Source: Ectocarpus siliculosus
Taxonomy: Eukaryota > Sar > Phaeophyceae > Ectocarpales > Ectocarpaceae
Reading direction: 5' to 3'
Length of the DNA: 57,485 nucleotides
NCBI GenBank assembly: GCA_000310025.1
Contig: FN648718.1
Span: 7,466-64,950, forward strand
A program made the position numbers and the translations under genes. How positions within the stretch are numbered: position 1 is the first letter of the stretch; every line of letters starts with the position of its first letter. Below are positions 15,488 through 28,379 of the stretch, in pieces. The notes below the pieces were generated by a model. It saw only the letters and a list, made by a program, of their open reading frames with translations, was not told the DNA's origin and ran no database searches.

Positions 15488-18400
15488 TCAATCTGTGTCG
15501 TCGAGATTGAGCTGCAGCGCGTCCTTTTCCTTGTACTCCAGCCCCAGCTGGCGGCACACGGCCCACCCCGGCACGAGCGGCACGACCACGACCGCCATGT
15601 AGCCGCAGCGGGCCCTGAACAGCACCACCATCTCGGCCTTGGTGTCGTAAGACTCCACGGCGGCCTCGAGGGGACTTCTGATCACCTAGAAAAGATAAAA
15701 CATTTCATGACATATTCATTCTCATCGTCAAACATTCCATCACATATTTTTTGGTCAAAGCTTTGAAACGAGAGACGTACCTTACCTGAGAGGCGCAGTC
15801 CCAAACGGGGACGGCACCCGGAGGATTGATTGCTGCGAAGAAAACAAGCTTAAAAGGTGTGGCTAGCTAGGTATTGTTGCTGCTATTCACTAAAAAGGAC
15901 ACGTCGCCAAAAAAAAAACGTCCGACCTCTCGACTGGGAAGAGCCGTACTTGCAAGACACGAGAAAAAATACAACCTTTGATTCTCGCCAGTTGCTAACT
16001 TGTTGGCGGATATTGGCGAGGCACGCAGGGCGGAAAGAGGCGGCCTCCCCGATAGAGGCAGGGGGGAAGGAGGAGGCGTGGCAACGCTTTGGTGGCCGTG
16101 GAAGCAGACTACACGCAGCAGCACAACTTCAACCACGACCACCACCACCACCAACAATAGCAACGGCGACAACCAGGGCATGGGAAAAGGGGCGCAAAAC
16201 ACGTAGGACAAGGGCTTCACTCACCCCGAGTTCAAAGTCGTCCTGCAGAACGGCGTCCACGAACTCTCCCATGCTCAGGAAGTGGAGGATGATGCTGCGG
16301 TCAAGCCTGCGCCCGTTGCTGTTGACGGGTCGCAAGTACTCCAGCTCCAGCACGGGGTTCGGTGTCTGCTTCGGCAAGACGGAATAGGAATGGGCCGGGT
16401 CGGTGGGCTGTGTGACCTACTAATACATGTATCACAGCACCTGCTCCCCTCCTTACCACCACATCCCTCCGCTGTTCCACCTGCTGTTTCGTTGAGCACG
16501 ATGCCCCTACCCCCTCCCGTGCTTTCCTCTTCGCGCGAACGCGCCGCCGCTGCCAACGCCTTGCCTCGTCTTGAAGCAGCCGAGCTTCGCAACCGCCACC
16601 TCCTCGACCTCATCACTCGTTCAACCATGGTCACCACCGACGCCCGTGGTCAAGCTGGGGACCATTCCTGTTGCATCCCTTACGCTACATGAGCAAAAGA
16701 CACAGATGAAACCCGAACGCTCAGAAGGCGCAGGGCTTGCCGAAGGATAGTCTGACGGACCGACCCTACGGTGAGACACATGTACCAAGCAAACGAAAGC
16801 AACGCGCAAAAGCTGTGGCTGACGAGCAAGCAAGGGCAGCAACTTGTTCAAAAAACAAGCAACTTACACCAAGCAGACACGAAAAATAGCACCAGAAAGC
16901 GCAACTCCGTATGCCGATAACGCCAAGTGTAACAGAACTAAGGGCGATCTGGAAGACCCGTGATGAAGAACCCATCTGTACTACAGTAGCTCGTGTGGAA
17001 CAGCAGTGCAGCTGTTGCCCTGTCAACCGGTAGGAACGACACCGGTGGGGCAGGATCGGTTCCCTCAAGCAGGGGCTACTGGATCCTGTCCCCTGATTCG
17101 TCCTTCCATCGGGGAGTTACACCTCCCCGCTCCTTCTAGAAGGAATGGAATCCCTTCTACGTTTTGCATACAGAACCCTAAACTCAATACCCCGCAACGC
17201 AATGGTTGTGCGGTCGCGCAGCAGTAGATATGCGTACAATCGTCGCAGAAATTCGAAAAGTGTACATAAGATTTCACTCCCATATGACGTGTGCACAATA
17301 TGCTTCTTTGACCTTGACGTGTCAGTGGGAGGCAGTGGTACTGTACTGCACTGTAGCAGTTCGTTTTCAACCCAAAGAGAAAGCAAAAAAACGTGGAAGA
17401 GAATTATGACGTCACCGATTGTTTTACCTGTACGAAAACGAAGCCTCTACCGAGCGCCTCCCCGTGGCACACCGCGAACGGACACAGGTAGAGCCGCACC
17501 CGCCCGAGAACCCTCGCCACCACGCTCTGTCTGTCGAGCGGCGCCCGGCCACCCCCCGCGTCCCCGCCTCGCATCTCCTTCAGCTGGCCGCACATGGCCT
17601 TGTGATCCTTCTTCCAGTCGATCACCTTTCGCGACATTTTTCACCACGTGCACCACCGAAAGAAAAGGAAGCGAATTGAAGAATGCCGCGAGAGAGTGAC
17701 GCCATTGTCGAAGTACACGATAGTATCTAAACGGGCGTTTTTTTTCATGTCTTCGCCGGAAAATCTCATCCATAGAGCGATATTGTTGGTAGCAAGCTGG
17801 GATTCCCAAGCGGGATGAGTCCACCAGTGTCAGCACTAGAGCCGCAGCACTAGAGCCGCAGCAGTAGTGGCAAACCGCAAGTGCTGTGACCGCGAGGCCA
17901 GAGCCCGGGGGCGGGGGACGGGTGGTAGGACGTGGAAGGTATCTAGGATACGGAGAAGGTGTGAATACTTTAGTCACCTGACACTCCCGGCTGCAGTACT
18001 TGGCGCCGCACTTGGAGCAGCAGCAAAACGGACGCCCCGTGGGCTCCTCCGTCTTGTTGCACGCAGCACGTTGACAACTCGCCAAGCATAGCCCCGGCGG
18101 AGCGCGTGCGGTGGCCTTCTCTCCTGCCAGCTGAGCAAAAAAAAAGAAAGAAGCCGGAAGGAGACGGAATCGAGATAAGTGTGGCGCGGTTGGGCAGCCA
18201 GCTGGGGGTACGTGTTGGCGGCGTAGTGTGCTGTGCCGGTCGCGTCGATATTTCCGACGATTTGATGATTTCAGCTAAAATGGAAAGGCGCGCGAGGAGT
18301 TGCTGTGCACAATGCTACACTGGGCTGCTGTGACTATTTAAGCATTTTATGCGATTGGCTGGTGGACTCCAAGAACGGATCATGCATGGAGGCCGACAGA

Positions 18401-19830: not shown

Positions 19831-22800
19831 ATGTCACAGCAGCCGCAGCAGCAGCTTGCCGGAGCGGTTGTGGTGCTAGCCTTGTCGATCGTCACGCTCG
19901 CCGCCGTGCTTGCGAGCATGGAGCGGGGTCGGTCACGGCGGCACGCGAGAGGGTGCACCAACCATAGTCCACATGCGGCGGTTACGCGAGGAGAGGGCGC
20001 CAACCCTGAGAGTTTCCCCGCAGCGCCTGCACTCGGGTCGACTGCGGAGGGAAATGGAAAGGTCGTGGGGGTGGTGGAAGCGAGCACACCGCCCGGTGGT
20101 GGTGCTGCTGCAGGCGAGCGGACTCCTTCGGGCACGGAGGGTTCGGCGGGCCGGCGGCTGGAAATCCTGGTGCACAACATCTCGCACAAGGATATGGTTC
20201 TGTCGCTCAGAAGGACGCGAAAGGCTGCCGCCGCGATGCCTCGACGGCCTCCGACCGGGGAAGAGGCCATGAGCAACGTCATCGATGCGGTGAGTTGCAC
20301 ACAATCATTCGGAATTTTTTGCACAACATGCGCCGTCGTCCGCATTCCCTGCGACGATAGAAACAATTGTGACATGCTGTCTTTTATTCGGCTTACATAC
20401 ATGTTCGAAGCAGTTCAAGGTTTTACATGAAGCGATTCGACATTTCAAATTACATGAAGACAATCAAAGTTTCTAAATGGAAGATTCTGTTTTTCTCGCC
20501 CCACGCAAGAAACCGAATACGTGAAAAGGTGTCGCGGTCCGTACCCTGGATCTCCTCTTGCTGTTGTTGTATTTCGTTGGAATGCGTGTGGCGTTCCGCT
20601 AATCCGCTAACCTGCAACTCATGCGTACCATGAAGTCCGCAGGACTATCTTTCCGCGCGTGAGTGGCGTGGTCTAAGTCGCCGCCAGTATTTACAGTTCC
20701 ATGTGCGATCCCCGCTCTCGATCTCACTACTCTCGCCCCCGTCGCACGCTCTCAGCGCTTGCTCTCATCCAGTACTCATCTTAAGCAGTCTTCAAGACTT
20801 TGGCCTCCTCCTCCTTGAACGGAATTTTTCGACTAAAGTATCTTGGGGCCAAGTGGACCACACTGCCGCAGGCGGACTCTGGAATACAGCAGTCACACCT
20901 TCAGTACGAAAAACTTTCTCTCTATTGTATTGGCTGCAATATAACCGAACGGCTTTTCATATCACCACTACATCTCGGCCCCTCCCTTCCTACCAGCGCG
21001 CACATGCACCACGCTCTGCTCAAAAACACGCCACTATGGCGGCCGACACTTTTCACTGTACATGGTACATGCGCGGCTCGCTTGTTCGAGGTTGGCGGCG
21101 GACGCGTGCCAGCCGAAACCCTTGCACCGCTACGCGCGATCTGTTGCTTCAACGTCCGGCCGAAATCACTCGCGGAACACGAACGGTAAAACTGCTGCGT
21201 GCGTGTGCGTGTCCGCCGACAGGCCGACACGGCGCTCGCACGGCCGAAGTTCAGCCTCTTCAAGCGATCGAGCGAACTTATCCTGCACAAGCTGCAGGAG
21301 ATACGGGCGGCGGGCGGGAGGGAGCCCCCGCCGGCCGTGTGCCCGGTGTACCGCCGAGGGGAGCCCGACTTAAGGTCCGGGCCGCCCTCTGCTCCGCGAG
21401 AGAGGTGAGAAAAACGGAAAAGAACGACGGGGGAGGAGCAGCGAAAAGGAGAGAAAAACATACATTGTGTGTGTAGAGGTGTTGCGACCGAAAACGCTAC
21501 AGCGGAATTTATTTCACGGGGTGTAGGCGAACGGATCGCGCCCCCCTCTCCTGCAAACGTTCGCATACCCCAAAGCCTGGTTTCAAGATCAGAAGGGAAC
21601 AAAACGCCGCGATGCCGTCTGTTCTTGGAGCTCTTTTCGATACGTACAAGGAGGTGCGGGTTTTGAGGTTGCTGGTAAGCCTTGCAGGTGTGCTACAGCT
21701 TGGGGGGCAGACGAGACGGCGTTTGCTCAGGGGTCATGCATGCGTCAACCCAGTCGCGGTGAGTTACTTCTCCCGGACGCCGCTCCCAGTTCCAAGCGAT
21801 GGACAACACGATACAACCAACACTCAAGCTTCGCAACCACAATTGATGAACGGAACGAGATTGTTTTCTCGGGGATCTCTGTTTTTTTTTTTTTGCGCCT
21901 GGTCACTGTCTCTCGTAGCCCCGCTCACGAAACCTCGCCGCTTGGCGCCTTTCTTCGCAGCGTGTCCGTCGGGTTCGACCTGGACGACACCCCGATACCG
22001 ATCTTCGACCTGGCCGGCTACCGCGTCCGCAGCGAGGACCTAGACCGCCTCGCCCCCGCCGCCGGCCGCCGGAGCTCCTCGAACCTCCTGCGCAAGGTCC
22101 TGAACAGGAGGGATTCTTCTGGGCTGTTCCTGGCCGGCGGCGGCGGCGGCGGCGGCGGTGGCGGCGGCGGTAGCGGCGGTGGCGGTGGAACCGGTAGATT
22201 ACTCCCCGTGCAAGATCCCGGACCAAGGCAGCTGCTGCTGCAGCAGCAGCCCCAGCTGCAGCAGCTGAAGGAAGACGGGAGTGGGGACGGGGGATGCGGC
22301 GGCGGCGGCGGCGGCGGGGGGAAAGGCGAAGGGGAAGCGTTCATCAGCGGGGTGTACTTCCCGCTGCTGTCCGTCCTCATGCCCAAGTGGATGGAGCTGC
22401 TGGCCAGGAGCGGGGACGACGTGGATTCGTCCAAGACGGTGCTGCTCGTTAGCGGCGTGGGACAGCCCCGCAACGAGGAGCACCGCCTGGAGGACAACTC
22501 CACCGAGGTGAGAAACGAGCAAGGTTGCGCCGTCTTGTTTCGGCCACGATTTCACGCCCAACCAAACGTTTCCTGCCTTGTCGGCGTCTCGCGGCCGCCG
22601 TTGATTGCAGCCTGGCGAACAGCGGCGGTGCTTGCTCTTTTGTTCCGGGAGCTTTTTACCGTTGCGCTTCATCCGTCTCTTGGTGTCTTCTTGCTCGGGA
22701 TGGTCCGTGCCCTCCCCGTGCCGACTCGCATCCTCCTCCTACGTTTCCGCATGGGTGGTTCCTTCGCACCCTCTTTCTCTTCCCCCGAGTGCTGTCACTG

Positions 22801-23284
22801 CTGTCTACCGTCTTCCAAAACGATCGCTTGCCCCGAAGTCGTCCATGAGTAGTGGTAGGGCTGAAGGCCGCGTGGAGCGTGCTCCCGGTTGAAATCAAGC
22901 CGCATGCTGTTCCTTAAGGTGTCGAACCCCTTCTTGTCATGTCCTTTTCCTTTCCCCTGGGATGTCCCTTGTGCGGCTAGAGAATGGGCGCAGTGTGGCA
23001 CAGGATAACACTAAGTGCGGCTAAAATCCACTAGATAGCGACAGCGTGAACAAGAAGTGATCTCTGCTCTGCTTTGTTCCCTCGTGACCATCCCTACGCG
23101 TTTGTTTCTCTATCTCGCGTGATGGCGCGTTTAAATATCTCGGTTACGTTACGACATCACGGGCACAGGTGACAGCGGTCCTGATGGAGGCGTTCTTGAA
23201 GAGGCACTTCCCCACCGTGCGCGTCGTACGCGTGCACTCCGACACGAATATTTTCAGGTGTGTAAGTGCTGCTGCTGCTGTTGT

Positions 23285-23331
<47 letters not shown>

Positions 23332-23332
23332 T

Positions 23333-23367
<35 letters not shown>

Positions 23368-23368
23368 T

Positions 23369-23409
<41 letters not shown>

Positions 23410-23814
23410 TGTTGTGGTTGTTGTTTGTCCTTTCGTGATCTAAACTTCCAGCGGTAGGATTGTCTGCCTCTCACCGCGTAAGCTTACGTATCAGCGGTTT
23501 GAATCATCTTCGAAACGGCCGCGTTTCGTGTTCCTCTCTGCCTAGTCTAAACAACGCGTGTGTTTCGTTCATGGCATGCTCCCCGGTGATGTTGTCCTTG
23601 AAATGGATCAGGTATGACGACAACATCCGCTTCGTGAAGACGGAGCTGTTGCCCCTGCTCAACGCCGAGCGCAGCCAAATGGCGGAGAAATACGGAGAGG
23701 ACTGGCAGGTTTGGTGGTTCTGTTGTTGTAGCATTGCTTGTCATGCTGCTCTTGCTGCCGTACTTGTTTCTCGTGCTGCTCTCTTCTCCACTGTTGTTGA
23801 CTCTCCCTCTCTCC

Positions 23815-23881
<67 letters not shown>

Positions 23882-25290
23882 GCCGCCTTCATTTCTGCAC
23901 CTCTCCGGTTCCTACGCCTCCCCCGTGCGCGAAAGGACATGATGCACATCACCATGAGCTTCGCGGACGGTTCGCCAGCGCGCATTTCCTCCATCAACGC
24001 CGCCCTCCGACACTTCAAGCCCTCCTTCATCCACATCTGGGAGCTCAAAACGTTCTGGCACGAGAAGGCTATCTGCGAGGACGACGTGGAGGCGAGTCCA
24101 TGTTGTACTGTTTTTTTATCCCGATGCCCCAACGGTTCCATGTGTCCTTTTTATTGCCCCACAAGATCTTCTTGTCGCACGAGAAAAATTTTTGTTGTTG
24201 CATCTTCTGCGGGGGACAACGACGTCCGAGGGATTTTGCCTCCGAGGGCCGGCGCAAAGGATGTTTTGATTCGTTCACCGCCAGGGGGTTTCCAATGTAG
24301 GGTGTACGGCGCGGACACTCCCTGAAGGTACCATCTTCCATCTTGCACGCTATGTTCACCTTTGTTTGCGGGTGTGTGTATCGTATCGCGCATCGTTCCA
24401 GGGGATACCTTGTGCTGCAGTCCGTCCGCCGCATTGAACACGCTGGCTGCCGTTGTTGGGTGTTTTTGGGGCCCCAAAGAGGAACTGAAAATATTGCCAA
24501 GGGGTTCTGTTGTTCTCCGTTGAATGCCGGCTGTGAAAGCGAGGCTGAGGAAGCGATATTTTGTGGACCCATGAAAACAGATATGGAGCTGCTGCGTCGG
24601 CAGGCCCCACATTCAGCACAGCTATGTAGCAGTGCGTGACAAATTGTGTGTAGGTGCTCAACAACGTTTTTCCGCTTCGGACTGAAAATCGCTCGACGGC
24701 AGGGTTGCGCCTCGTCCCACACCCGCCCACCTCCCTCGGTCTCCTCAGAAATGAAACCTGCGGCGCTTACGGCGTTGCGAGGTATTCGTGCCGACACAGG
24801 GCGCATGCCAGCAGTCCTACATCGAGCTAGCCCATCACCGTGTGTGGTCGTAGCACAGGGATGATCCACACCGATTGGCTGATGGCGACGAGAACCCACC
24901 CCACATTTCCACGTGACCCGCTAATAGTTTTGTTGTTGTTGTTTGTTTGTCCAGGTGCACACGTTCGAGGACATCGACATGCAGCCCCCGATGCCGGTCT
25001 CGGAAGTGGATGCTCCGACGGCCCTGATCATCGCCGAGATGCAACGCCTCAGGGACGACCTGGAACGGGTTCTTGCGGCACCCCCCCGAGGAGGTACCGC
25101 TCACCCTCCTCCGCGTCCCCCTTCCCTGTCGCGGGCAACGCACATGTATGTTATTGTAGGAGGCGTGTTCTGTTCCGCTCGCCGACACCAACACTTGTTC
25201 TCTCTGCGGACGGAGAGAGCGTGAGATGAGAGTTTTTTACCAAGCAGCAGGCGGCGATGTGTGTTCGCTCTGTCGGGAGGTATGTTTGGG

Positions 25291-25334
<44 letters not shown>

Positions 25335-28300
25335 CTTGCTTTTGGTCTGGTCCCCTCTGTCGTGAGCGGCAGCCTACACCCGACAGGCGTTCGACGCACC
25401 AGCGGGGGATGCAAACGGGGAAGGTAAATGCGCGTCATCTTATTTCTTTTCTCCGCATGTATATATTATGGATTTTCACGCGAGAGGGGTTGAGCAGCAG
25501 CCCCTTCCCCCTTTTTGTTGTGTGCACTCACAACTATCTATGCGCTGTTCACCCCAAACGTTGCGAGGTTTTGAAGCTGGAGAGATGTGAATTCACAACA
25601 CAGAGCAAGAAAGAACGTTTTACGAGACCATGTACCAAGTTCACACCGCTCAGCCATCGAGCTCGACGGGTGATGACGTTTGTTTTTTGCTACTTCTCTC
25701 CACCGTGGTGTGTCTGTGTGTGTGTTTCCCGGTGATATCTATGATACCCATGTCTTGTCATGTGTGCTACCCATGTTTCTTGTCGTCACGGCTGGTGTCT
25801 GCAGTCAGTCGTCGTGTGTACTGATGCAGCGCTCTCTTGTTTGATGGCGTCGCCTCTCCTTCTGTGTCTACTTGCTTGCTGCTGCTGTCGGCGGCGTGAA
25901 AAAAAAAAAGCCGTGGTTGGTGGCGACACGAGAGACGACCTGGCGTCCTTCTGGCTGAGGAAGACGAAGAAGCCTGTTCTTGCGGTTCTCCTTGTGCAGA
26001 AGAAAGGAGGCCGGCCTCAGCTCTTCCGCGGAACAAACATGGAGGCGAGTTAATAAAATATGACAAAGACATCATGTTGTCGACGACCGTCGCCAGGACG
26101 CCACCCCGCTTCTCTTCCCGCTCCGCGCTCCTTCCTTTGTTTGACGCCGAGTTCCATCACGGCCTTCGTTCGTTGCAGCCACGGCAGGCAGTGTCGTTCT
26201 GGCAGAAAAAATATTCGCGCGGTAATTCTGTTTGTTGTGACCATGGTTCGGAGCTCCTACTACGCGGTGGACCCACCGTACCGTGAGCGCTGAATAAAAG
26301 TGACGGGGAAAAAAACACAAAATGGTCTAAAGCCTGTACACCTCACTCTCCGACTTCCGCCGCATCCCCCCCCCCCCGACACGCCATGCACGCGTGAAAA
26401 CATCACAATTCATTCGTGCCGGGGATATAACACACACACGCAACAAAAAAGGTTTCAATGCCCACGGGATCGCTGTGCGCCGAGCGTAACGTCATCGGCT
26501 CCGCGCTCACGTCCGACCTGAGCCTCCTCCGGAGAGACATCAAGGCGGTCGCCGTGCTGTCCGTGGCCCACCTGGGCGGACCTCCCGCCTCTACCGCCAC
26601 CACCGCGGCTGCTGTTCCCATCGACGAAAGAAAAGAAGGCGCTTCGTTGACTGGTATCACGGCTGTCGATAGTGGCGGCGGGCGGAGCGGGTGGCCAGGG
26701 GCCGCTGGAATGGGGTCAGCAGTGGGGTCCTCTTTAACAACTTCATGCGCGCCGTCGCCGCTTTCCCTGACGCCGGCGATGAAGGTGTCCCCTAAGAGCG
26801 CGTTGTTGCGGACCGAGACGGGGGCGGGGGCGGAGGACAAGGAACGGCTGGAGGGGGTTCGCCAGGTCTGTGTGTTTTTGTCCCTGCGTTCGATCAAGGG
26901 AGATTTTTTCCGATGTTGTGTTGGCCACCGTTTGTTGATGGCGTTCGTTCGCGCAACGTCGTCGTTGACAGATTCATCGCACTTGTTTGTTTTGTCTTGT
27001 TGGCTATGGTAGGGGTTGGCGAGGTGGGCACGTTAGCCGACGGACCAGGCGGTGGTACCGGTACCACCCCGCTGATCGAACGTGTCGGCCCCGTTTCCCA
27101 TCTTTTCGTGGGGGTCACTTCTACCCCCCACCCCCTCCTTCGTGAATTTATCGCACCCGCGGCCCTTAATCTTGACCCCCTGTCCCCGCCCATTCGTCAT
27201 CGGGCTGCCCTCAACAAACAAACCTGCTTTGCGAGGAAGGCACTGTTCGCAGTGGCGTCCGAGACAAGTGCTTCGCCGGCGGCTACGCCAGCAGCAGCAG
27301 CAGCACTCGGAGCAGCGGCAGCGGTAGCCGCGGAAGGACCACCCGAAAGGTCTGTTTTTTTGCGGCCGAGCTTGGACGGCACTAACACCGATAGCAACAG
27401 CAACAACAGCGTGATCGACAGTCGGCAGCGGCGGCAGCAGCAGCAGCAAGAGGTTGTTGACCCCAGTCCTCCGGCGAACCCCCGTGTCCGGTCGGAATCC
27501 TGTACAGACGAACTCCTCGCCGCTGGTGGTCGAGTCGCAACCGAAGAAGAGTTGAGGAGCCTCTCGGGTGGCGGCGGCGGCGGCCTCGGCGAGGGGGGCG
27601 GGGGGTGTTGCGGTGCCGCTGAGGGGGGAGGAGAAAATCAGGGAAGGTCACCGGCGGCGCGGAGCCAAGTGTCTCGATCGCAGAGCTTGGACCTGGGCAG
27701 GGCAGAGGGAGGGGAGCACCGACAGCCCCCCCCTGGCGGTGGTGCGGAAGAAGAACTTTCCAGGAGGAAGGCGAGAGAAGATTGTTTTTTTTATGAGGCA
27801 CGTATCTCACCAAGAGCAGATTTATTTGCGTAACGCCTGCCCCCGCCACCAATACCTCTCAGAGTGATTTCACGTAGCCCCCGCACTAATACCTCGCTTC
27901 TCCCTCACAACCCTCTTCCTACTTCGTCTTGAGAGTACACGTTGTTGTTGTTGTTGTTGTTGTTGTTGTTATCGTCTCAGGTTCGGAGGAAGACGAAAGT
28001 CGTCCGGAGTATCGCATCGACGCCGAAGCGAGGTGTTGGTAGCGGAGGCATCGCCGCCGGCGGTTGGGAAAAAAGCCCCCTCACAGATAGCGGCGGCGGC
28101 GGCGGCGGCGGTAGGGGAGATGGTGGTGGTGGAATGTACAGCGACGACCAGGGTGGCGGCGGCGGCAGCAATCACCATCGCCACCCGAGGACGAGCAGAA
28201 GCAGCATCGTCGCGCACGTGCCGCCAGAAACTCTGTGTTCCAACCCCCTCAAGCCCTGCGGCGCGTGCATGGAGTGGCTCAAGAAGATCGCGGAGGTGAA

Positions 28301-28379
28301 CCCAGACTTCAAGGTCATCACCTTCACCGACTCTCGCTGCGGAGGCGTGTACATCGAAGACGTGGCCCAGATACCATAG
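19831..28379 (+). CDS. Membrane-anchored fusion protein with C-terminal cytidine-deaminase-fold domain
   Basis: Exons: 19831-20289, 21223-21404, 21593-21653, 21688-21758, 21961-22507, 23169-23257, 23612-23708, 23936-24091, 24955-25093, 25248-25279, 25387-25423, 25911-26044, 26452-26865, about 27024-27797, 27981-28379; roughly 1,190 residues. A hydrophobic stretch (about 10-30, LAGAVVVLALSIVTLAAVLA) followed by arginines suggests a signal anchor. Residues about 400-560 alternate strands and helices (KTVLLVSGVGQPRNEEHR, VRVVRVHSDTNIF, MMHITMSFADGSP, FIHIWELKTF), a Rossmann-like pattern I cannot assign. The deaminase part begins with FWLRKTKKPVLAVLLVQK, then GTNMEVSMPTGSLCAERN (Asn666, Glu668; zinc ligand Cys677; catalytic Glu679 of the Cys-Ala-Glu motif) and, near the C terminus, LKPCGACMEWLKKI with the other two zinc cysteines and VITFTD. 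A Gly/Gln-rich insert of about 300-400 residues separates the two halves of the active site. All three zinc ligands and the proton-shuttle Glu are present, so activity is plausible; the substrate is unknown. The ends of the fourteenth exon are uncertain. Confidence 0.82.
23272..23408. repeat. (GTTGCT)n hexanucleotide microsatellite
   Basis: About 137 bases of GTTGCT units with a few GTT variations, starting 14 bases after the donor of the sixth deaminase-fusion exon. All frames through it are open (poly-Val/Ala, poly-Cys, poly-Leu) purely because of the repeat. Confidence 0.95.
23798..23879. repeat. (CT)n microsatellite
   Basis: About 40 CT units in the intron ahead of the eighth deaminase-fusion exon. 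It may serve as a very long pyrimidine tract. Confidence 0.95.
24092..24954 (+). other. Probable GC-AG intron in the deaminase-fusion gene
   Basis: The donor is GAG|GCGAGT, identical to the one at 26042-26050. The acceptor TTTGTCCAG precedes GTGCACACG. An alternative GT donor six bases upstream (GAC|GTGGAG) keeps the frame but is a much poorer match, so the call is likely rather than certain. Confidence 0.55.
25291..25333. repeat. (GTT)n microsatellite
   Basis: About 14 GTT units starting roughly 11 bases after the donor at 25280 in the deaminase-fusion gene. Confidence 0.95.
26045..26451 (+). other. GC-AG intron in the deaminase-fusion gene
   Basis: The upstream exon ends ATG GAG and the intron starts GCGAGT. 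It ends AAAAAAG before GTTTCAATG. Joining here restores the cytidine-deaminase signature NME-VSMPTGSLCAERN, and no GT donor lies nearby before the in-frame TAA, so the GC donor is well supported by homology. The acceptor has no polypyrimidine tract. Confidence 0.75.
27940..27970. repeat. (GTT)n microsatellite before the last deaminase-fusion exon
   Basis: About ten GTT units ending 10 bases upstream of the acceptor at 27980. Confidence 0.95.

Follow-up and report, generated by a model that had tools for sequence, protein, structure and literature searches.

A CARF-like region joined to a cytidine deaminase-type domain in the brown alga Ectocarpus siliculosus and in bacterial relatives

We analysed a 57,485-nucleotide stretch of the genome of the brown alga Ectocarpus siliculosus (assembly GCA_000310025.1, contig FN648718.1, positions 7,466 to 64,950), referred to here as the window, and found a gene whose product joins a deaminase of the LmjF.36.5940-like clade to an N-terminal half that, on alignment, is homologous to bacterial N-terminal halves whose predicted fold matches CARF sensors. 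The reading that we favour, with a probability of about 0.6, is that a CARF-like sensor has been fused to a cytidine deaminase (CDA), that a nucleotide gates the enzyme and that its activity alters C/U pools. The active-site residues, the homology of both halves, the folds predicted for two of the bacterial proteins and a single type III CRISPR-like context carry this reading. We write 'CARF-like' rather than naming a canonical CARF member because the CARF signature is absent and sequence-level support for CARF membership is weak.

A PF14421-family deaminase domain forms the C-terminal half

The gene runs on the + strand from a start codon at 19831 (MSQQPQQQL) to a stop codon that ends at 28379, the span proposed in an earlier note on this DNA. 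Ten exons can be joined in phase, giving a protein of 863 residues; all nine introns have AG acceptors, and the donors are GT in seven and GC in two. With a low-complexity insert trimmed from the query, the C-terminal part matches PF14421 (LmjF365940-deam) with an E value of 2.4e-62 (210.9 bits against a gathering cut-off of 27.1). The deaminase active site that the note had read from the letters (N.E, Cys-Ala-Glu, Pro-Cys-x-x-Cys) is complete: TNME at 26033-26044, PTGSLCAER at 26461-26487 (CAE at 26476-26484) and PCGAC at 28254-28268. The insert does split this active site, at a position occupied in bacterial relatives by a loop of roughly 5 to 15 residues. In the present gene model its length is about 185 residues rather than the 300-400 first estimated, and would come nearer to that figure if an open frame at ~27.2-27.8 kb, a possible additional exon, were included.

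In alignment, the protein's N.E pair falls on the corresponding pair of human CDA, suggesting that the substrate is a free nucleoside or nucleotide. The protein misses the cut-off of TIGR01354, the salvage tetrameric-type family (31.2 against 113.65 bits), and a PF00383 search of the own genome (189 Mb assembly, 492 contigs; G000) matched three other places and missed this gene. No salvage enzyme with the same layout was met. Nor is the effector half a Cad1-like TIM-barrel adenosine deaminase: it belongs to PF14421, and the models of two relatives match cytidine deaminases.

Bacterial relatives share the two-part layout

Searching a prokaryote collection with a degenerate PTG(S/T)xCAERN pattern returned 12 stretches, 11 of which encode relatives, in 9 genomes (5 Deltaproteobacteria, 1 Myxococcales, 2 Proteobacteria and 1 uncultured bacterium). 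Their frames span 402 to 546 residues, and PF14421 is present in 11/11. Both halves lie in one frame in 10 of the 11, with a VHNIGHHDLYL-like start, an LVSTG/LLTAG-like strand, a helix, an LSxSTGT-like strand 4 and the deaminase; in the eleventh (L032), the first strand is missing behind an in-frame TAG. A more distant twelfth relative (L041, in G125) has the same layout. Relatives were found neither in viral contigs nor in a first scan of genome contigs that preceded the degenerate-pattern search. Two candidates were set aside: L021, the remaining pattern stretch, was a chance match, and a sensor-only paralogue in G003 (C184; L063:4620-5816) is probably a chimaera, since by eye its tail resembles a DNA polymerase and its frame reaches the contig end. 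The second copy in G004 (L074; G004:C278:6602-7858) shows a TAG in frame close to the start and is possibly decayed.

Within the phylum of G003, 9/377 genomes hold a full-length member, eight having already come from the pattern scan; within that of G007 the figure is 1/395, this genome also being known beforehand. The former phylum had matches in 82 genomes, comprising the 9 full-length members, 1 fragment (G166) and 72 genomes with partial matches to the deaminase part, which we regarded as ordinary CDAs and left out of the count. An unrooted tree of 13 sequences pairs the window protein with the bacterial relative L028 (87/85) within a five-row group (99/98); the window branch is long and its placement unsure. 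Because the diversity lies in bacteria, we infer transfer of the gene from bacteria to the eukaryote.

Two bacterial N-terminal halves resemble CARF sensors in predicted fold

A profile built from the bacterial N-terminal halves only recognized the spliced window protein at 75 bits (E 3.8e-22; 1005 sequences, filters off), against a best of 4.6 bits among 1000 shuffled-residue controls. Between the window protein and L028, with inserts trimmed, 58/268 aligned positions are identical over the N-terminal half and 70/119 over the deaminase. Family searches with the Rossmann region (Pfam, NCBIfam, PDB sequences, PADLOC) gave no result, the best Pfam match being TrmB at E 0.023, under the cut-off.

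AlphaFold models of L028 and L022 have a predicted six-stranded Rossmann-like core with the strand and helix order of CARF domains, the strand 5-6 hairpin being judged from strand order rather than coordinates, and a CDA fold in the C-terminal half. The best structural matches of the two N-terminal halves are CRISPR-associated CARF proteins, several of them solved, according to their titles, with bound cyclic oligoadenylate. The earlier note had guessed that a Rossmann-like domain able to sense nucleotides was coupled to the deaminase and had proposed a structure check for an ordered domain; the relatives' homology and CARF-like predicted folds support this architecture, the ordered domain itself being predicted in the relatives only. 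The turn that the note had singled out (KTVLLVSGVGQP) does belong to a strand of the sensor domain, and alignment makes it strand 2 rather than the beginning of the domain; strand 1 is RLEILVHNISHKD, with a long insert between them.

One relative lies in a type III CRISPR-like cluster

In G002, one of ten carriers, the CARF-like deaminase lies beside a cas10 cluster as the last gene of a same-strand type III CRISPR-like run, ordered as Lon-like protein, Cas10, three Cas7/Cas5 III-D-type proteins, a 168-residue protein and the deaminase. PADLOC identified Cas10 at E 5.4e-71, with the cyclase motif GGDD at residue 268, and the three Cas7/Cas5 proteins with best E values of 2.7e-41, 1.3e-74 and 7.1e-98. 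The Lon-like protein is possibly a second ancillary protein. The longest deaminase frame overlaps the gene of the 168-residue protein by 4 bases, although its probable ATG is more internal and the overlap thus varies with the choice of start codon. No CRISPR array was found near the cluster, the two stretches searched (20 kb and 16 kb) holding only two-copy imperfect repeats. On the other side of the gene are an MkoA-like helicase, ~6 kb away, and a PDC-M26A match.

On the contig of the G008 relative are Wadjet JetC3 (2e-196) and JetD3 (8.7e-83), JetD3 lying less than 2 kb from the gene and separated from it by a Schlafen/AlbA_2 gene. Next to one G004 copy is a kinase with a match to PD-T4-6 (1.1e-14), of a kind that kinases in general may give. 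Neighbours were scanned in part, covering loci other than those of G006, G009, G125 and the second G004 copy, and neighbour lists based on long open reading frames may be wrong in GC-rich loci. Genome-wide, Cas10-palm matches occur in 6/10 carriers, this family also matching Escherichia coli, and SMODS matches in 3/10. RAMP genes were present in 5/9 carriers and 54/368 other genomes of the sample (p 0.006), which we treat as a hint because the genomes are related.

Proposed mechanism and evidence against it

Under the favoured reading, the window protein would form CARF-type dimers, and a small nucleotide ligand bound where strands 1 and 4 end would shift the deaminase assembly. The deaminase would then turn free cytidine or a cytidine nucleotide into its uridine form, changing C/U pools. 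For the bacterial proteins, a cyclic oligoadenylate made by Cas10 is the probable ligand. For the signalling or conflict role suggested in the earlier note, the G002 cluster provides a conflict setting in one relative. It is possible, if unlikely, that a eukaryotic lineage took over a type III CRISPR effector and still uses it for a nucleotide-gated, CTP/dCTP-depleting and perhaps antiviral response, so that all members of the LmjF.36.5940 clade, those of trypanosomes among them, would be eukaryotic CARF effectors answering to an unrecognised eukaryotic second messenger.

Several results weigh against a nucleotide-gated CARF-like sensor. Pfam CARF families match 0/11 relatives and no window segment, and PADLOC CARF models match 2/11 relatives weakly (E 0.0012 and 0.0069) and the window protein not at all. 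Alignment of the family profile to a 4-sequence Csm6-type set with hhalign was weak (E 0.0021, probability 13.5%), and the window sequence alone gave short misplaced matches to Csm6-type and RtcR sets (probability 0.1-7%). RtcR, considered as the nearest CARF protein on a likeness seen by eye, was rejected when the profile-profile comparison gave nothing. The [DN]x[ST]xxx[RK] signature does not occur in exact form, the window protein having ADGSPARI and most relatives [ST]TGT or NTGT; in the passages of a 2014 survey on this point, the signature is only 'often' present and named families mostly lack the K/R (PMC4012209). Divergence has been faster in the sensor half than in the deaminase: the window protein keeps 9/17 well-conserved sensor columns and 44/53 in the deaminase, and the TGT after strand 4 is replaced by DGS, so the ligand may differ or have been lost.

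The setting adds to these points. In 9/10 carriers there is no Cas10 or RAMP match on the gene's contig, several of these contigs being short; PADLOC gave no match for 8 neighbour proteins at four loci of G001, G003 and G005, and among 3 neighbour proteins at the G007 locus the sole match was to Csx3, and weak (E 0.0091). Exon-by-exon searches of the own genome yielded no Cas10 or SMODS match, the control for the Cas10-palm search having matched in 5/14 genomes; a Mab-21 search had no result but, with its control silent too, carries no weight here. In the passages of PMC12064671 on the clade, its authors had identified no substrate.

Alternative explanations

The strongest competitor, which we consider rather improbable, is a housekeeping enzyme of the cytidine pool whose CARF-like half serves only for oligomerization, or lets a common metabolite regulate the enzyme, and takes no part in immunity or second-messenger signalling. 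A Trypanosoma brucei member of the clade tunes CTP/UTP and dCTP/dTTP pools, its overexpression lowering CTP and dCTP, and is described as not essential in the relevant passages of PMC12064671. MazG-type pyrophosphohydrolase genes adjoin the gene in G003 and G005; the missing Cas10 and SMODS matches in the own genome, the faster divergence of the sensor half and the lack of a defence match at most loci with scanned neighbours also suit this explanation. It accounts less readily for the type III cluster and the MkoA-like helicase in G002, the Wadjet JetC/JetD genes within about 2 kb in G008, the RAMP enrichment among carriers and the CRISPR-associated identity of the structural matches.

C-to-U editing of nucleic acids, or a mutator activity, guided by the N-terminal half, seems to us very improbable. 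The N.E pair and the structural matches are typical of CDAs acting on free nucleosides, and no nucleic-acid-binding Pfam family rose above its cut-off in window segments or relatives, which outweighs, in our view, the CCCH motifs of kinetoplastid members, one of which enters stress granules on starvation, and the treatment of nucleic-acid deaminases in the founding survey, Iyer 2011, as cited in passages of PMC12064671. Least probable of all is an artefact of the gene model, in which two adjoining genes or a pseudogene have been taken as one. The model was built from genomic sequence alone and uses two GC donors; the 3' boundary of exon 9 is uncertain, and there may be one exon more. Against this, the same layout recurs in one frame in 10/11 bacterial relatives and in L041, profiles of the relatives align in order to stretches in 9 of the 10 exons (the exception being exon 2), and every junction is in phase.

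Relation to known systems

The deaminase clade and the CARF effectors are each known, and no CARF-cytidine deaminase fusion uniting the two was met in the titles or abstract openings of the papers listed; an earlier mention is possible in Iyer 2011, reportedly the founding survey that defined the clade and dealt with nucleic-acid deaminases, or in Makarova 2020, said to give a CARF classification. In its relevant passages, the 2014 survey detected no CARF domains in eukaryotes (PMC4012209), and those of a review of CARF effectors name adenosine deaminase fusions without the word 'cytidine' (PMC9704534). The word deaminase is absent from the main text of an updated CRISPR classification (PMC12669027), as are 'cytidine' and 'eukaryot' from that of the Cad1 paper (PMC11645235).

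The closest eukaryotic proteins are those of the LmjF.36.5940-like clade, including T. brucei TbCDA-like, which share PF14421, a C-terminal deaminase and a long N-terminal part; in the passages concerned, the clade spans kinetoplastids, stramenopiles, chlorophytes and Perkinsus, but no CARF-like half is described (PMC12064671). There TbCDA-like has CCCH motifs and is cytosolic, whereas an anchor is predicted for the window protein. Cad1, a prokaryotic type III CRISPR CARF effector, carries an adenosine deaminase that converts ATP to ITP, according to parts of PMC12669630 and PMC11645235, and that is a TIM barrel in the pertinent part of PMC4012209; the window gene is eukaryotic and its deaminase of the zinc CDA type. 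Can2, Card1, Csm6 and Sis0811 resemble the two modelled relatives in predicted N-terminal fold, but are prokaryotic nuclease or ring-nuclease effectors where a deaminase stands here. AvcD-type dC deaminases defend against phage by depleting cytidine nucleotides, as the window protein would under the antiviral reading; AvcD is restrained by an RNA antitoxin (PMC10511110), in contrast to the CARF-like sensor of the window protein.

If the favoured reading is right, the fusion would be a new effector type for type III CRISPR signalling, and ligand gating would offer a testable mechanism for the orphan LmjF.36.5940 deaminases. It would also suggest that a further component of bacterial immunity has passed into eukaryotes. 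The bacterial versions, which are short and have no introns, can be tested directly.

Gene model and further features

Coordinates are collected in Table 1. The membrane anchor noted earlier corresponds to a hydropathy peak at residues 9-27 (mean 2.7), the maximum past residue 60 being 1.27. When a 294-residue part of the protein was run against the own genome, the strong matches were the gene's own exons only, the next best having an E value of 1.65.

Table 1. Features of the deaminase gene (window coordinates) and of neighbours of its bacterial relatives (locus coordinates).
Feature	Position	Strand	Remarks
Exon 1	19831..20289	+	start, hydrophobic anchor, CARF-like strand 1
Hydrophobic anchor LAGAVVVLALSIVTLAAVL	19855..19911	+	hydropathy peak
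Strand 1 RLEILVHNISHKD	20155-20193, exon 1	+	aligned with bacterial VHNIGHHDLYL; weak alone (7.7 bits)
Exon 2 (ARPKFSLFKRSSELILHKLQ)	21223..21404	+	splice sites and phase; multiple alignment only, no profile match
Exon 3	21961..22507	+	glycine-rich insert, helix 1, strand 2 KTVLLVSGVGQP at 22433-22468; aligned to relatives' profiles
Exon 4	23169..23257	+	helix 2, strand 3 (VRVVRVHS); aligned to relatives' profiles
Exon 5	23612..23708	+	helix 3; aligned to relatives' profiles
Exon 6	23936..24091	+	strand 4, helix 4, strand 5; GC donor; aligned to relatives' profiles
Pocket-position motif SFADGSPAR, strand 4	23957-23983, exon 6	+	placed by alignment
Exon 7	24955..25093	+	strand 6 (VHTFEDI, assigned by position only), linker helix to deaminase
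Exon 8	25935..26044	+	deaminase start FWLRK..., TNME; GC donor
Exon 9	26452..26865	+	PTGSLCAERN (zinc Cys, catalytic Glu), then low-complexity insert; 3' end uncertain
Low-complexity insert, genomic span including intron	26569..28241	+	separates the two active-site halves
Last exon	27981..28379	+	PCGACMEWLKK (two zinc Cys), stop
Lon-like protein	L076:10466-12715	-	directly upstream of Cas10, G002; Lon_C E 0.0052, under cut-off
168-residue protein without family	L076:1502-2008	-	between Cas7 gene and CARF-like deaminase, G002
MazG-type pyrophosphohydrolase genes	L065:8584-8946, L066:6122-6484		beside CARF-like deaminase, G003 and G005

The two GC-AG introns within this one gene lie at 24092-24954 and 26045-26451. 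Its introns also hold microsatellites (TCTC x14 at 23822-23877, GTT x14 at 25292-25333 and GTT x10 at 27941-27970). An Rfam scan of the window gave no match. Elsewhere in the window, Cys-rich stretches at ~17400-18100 on the minus strand have the look of what we take to be a MYND-type zinc finger.
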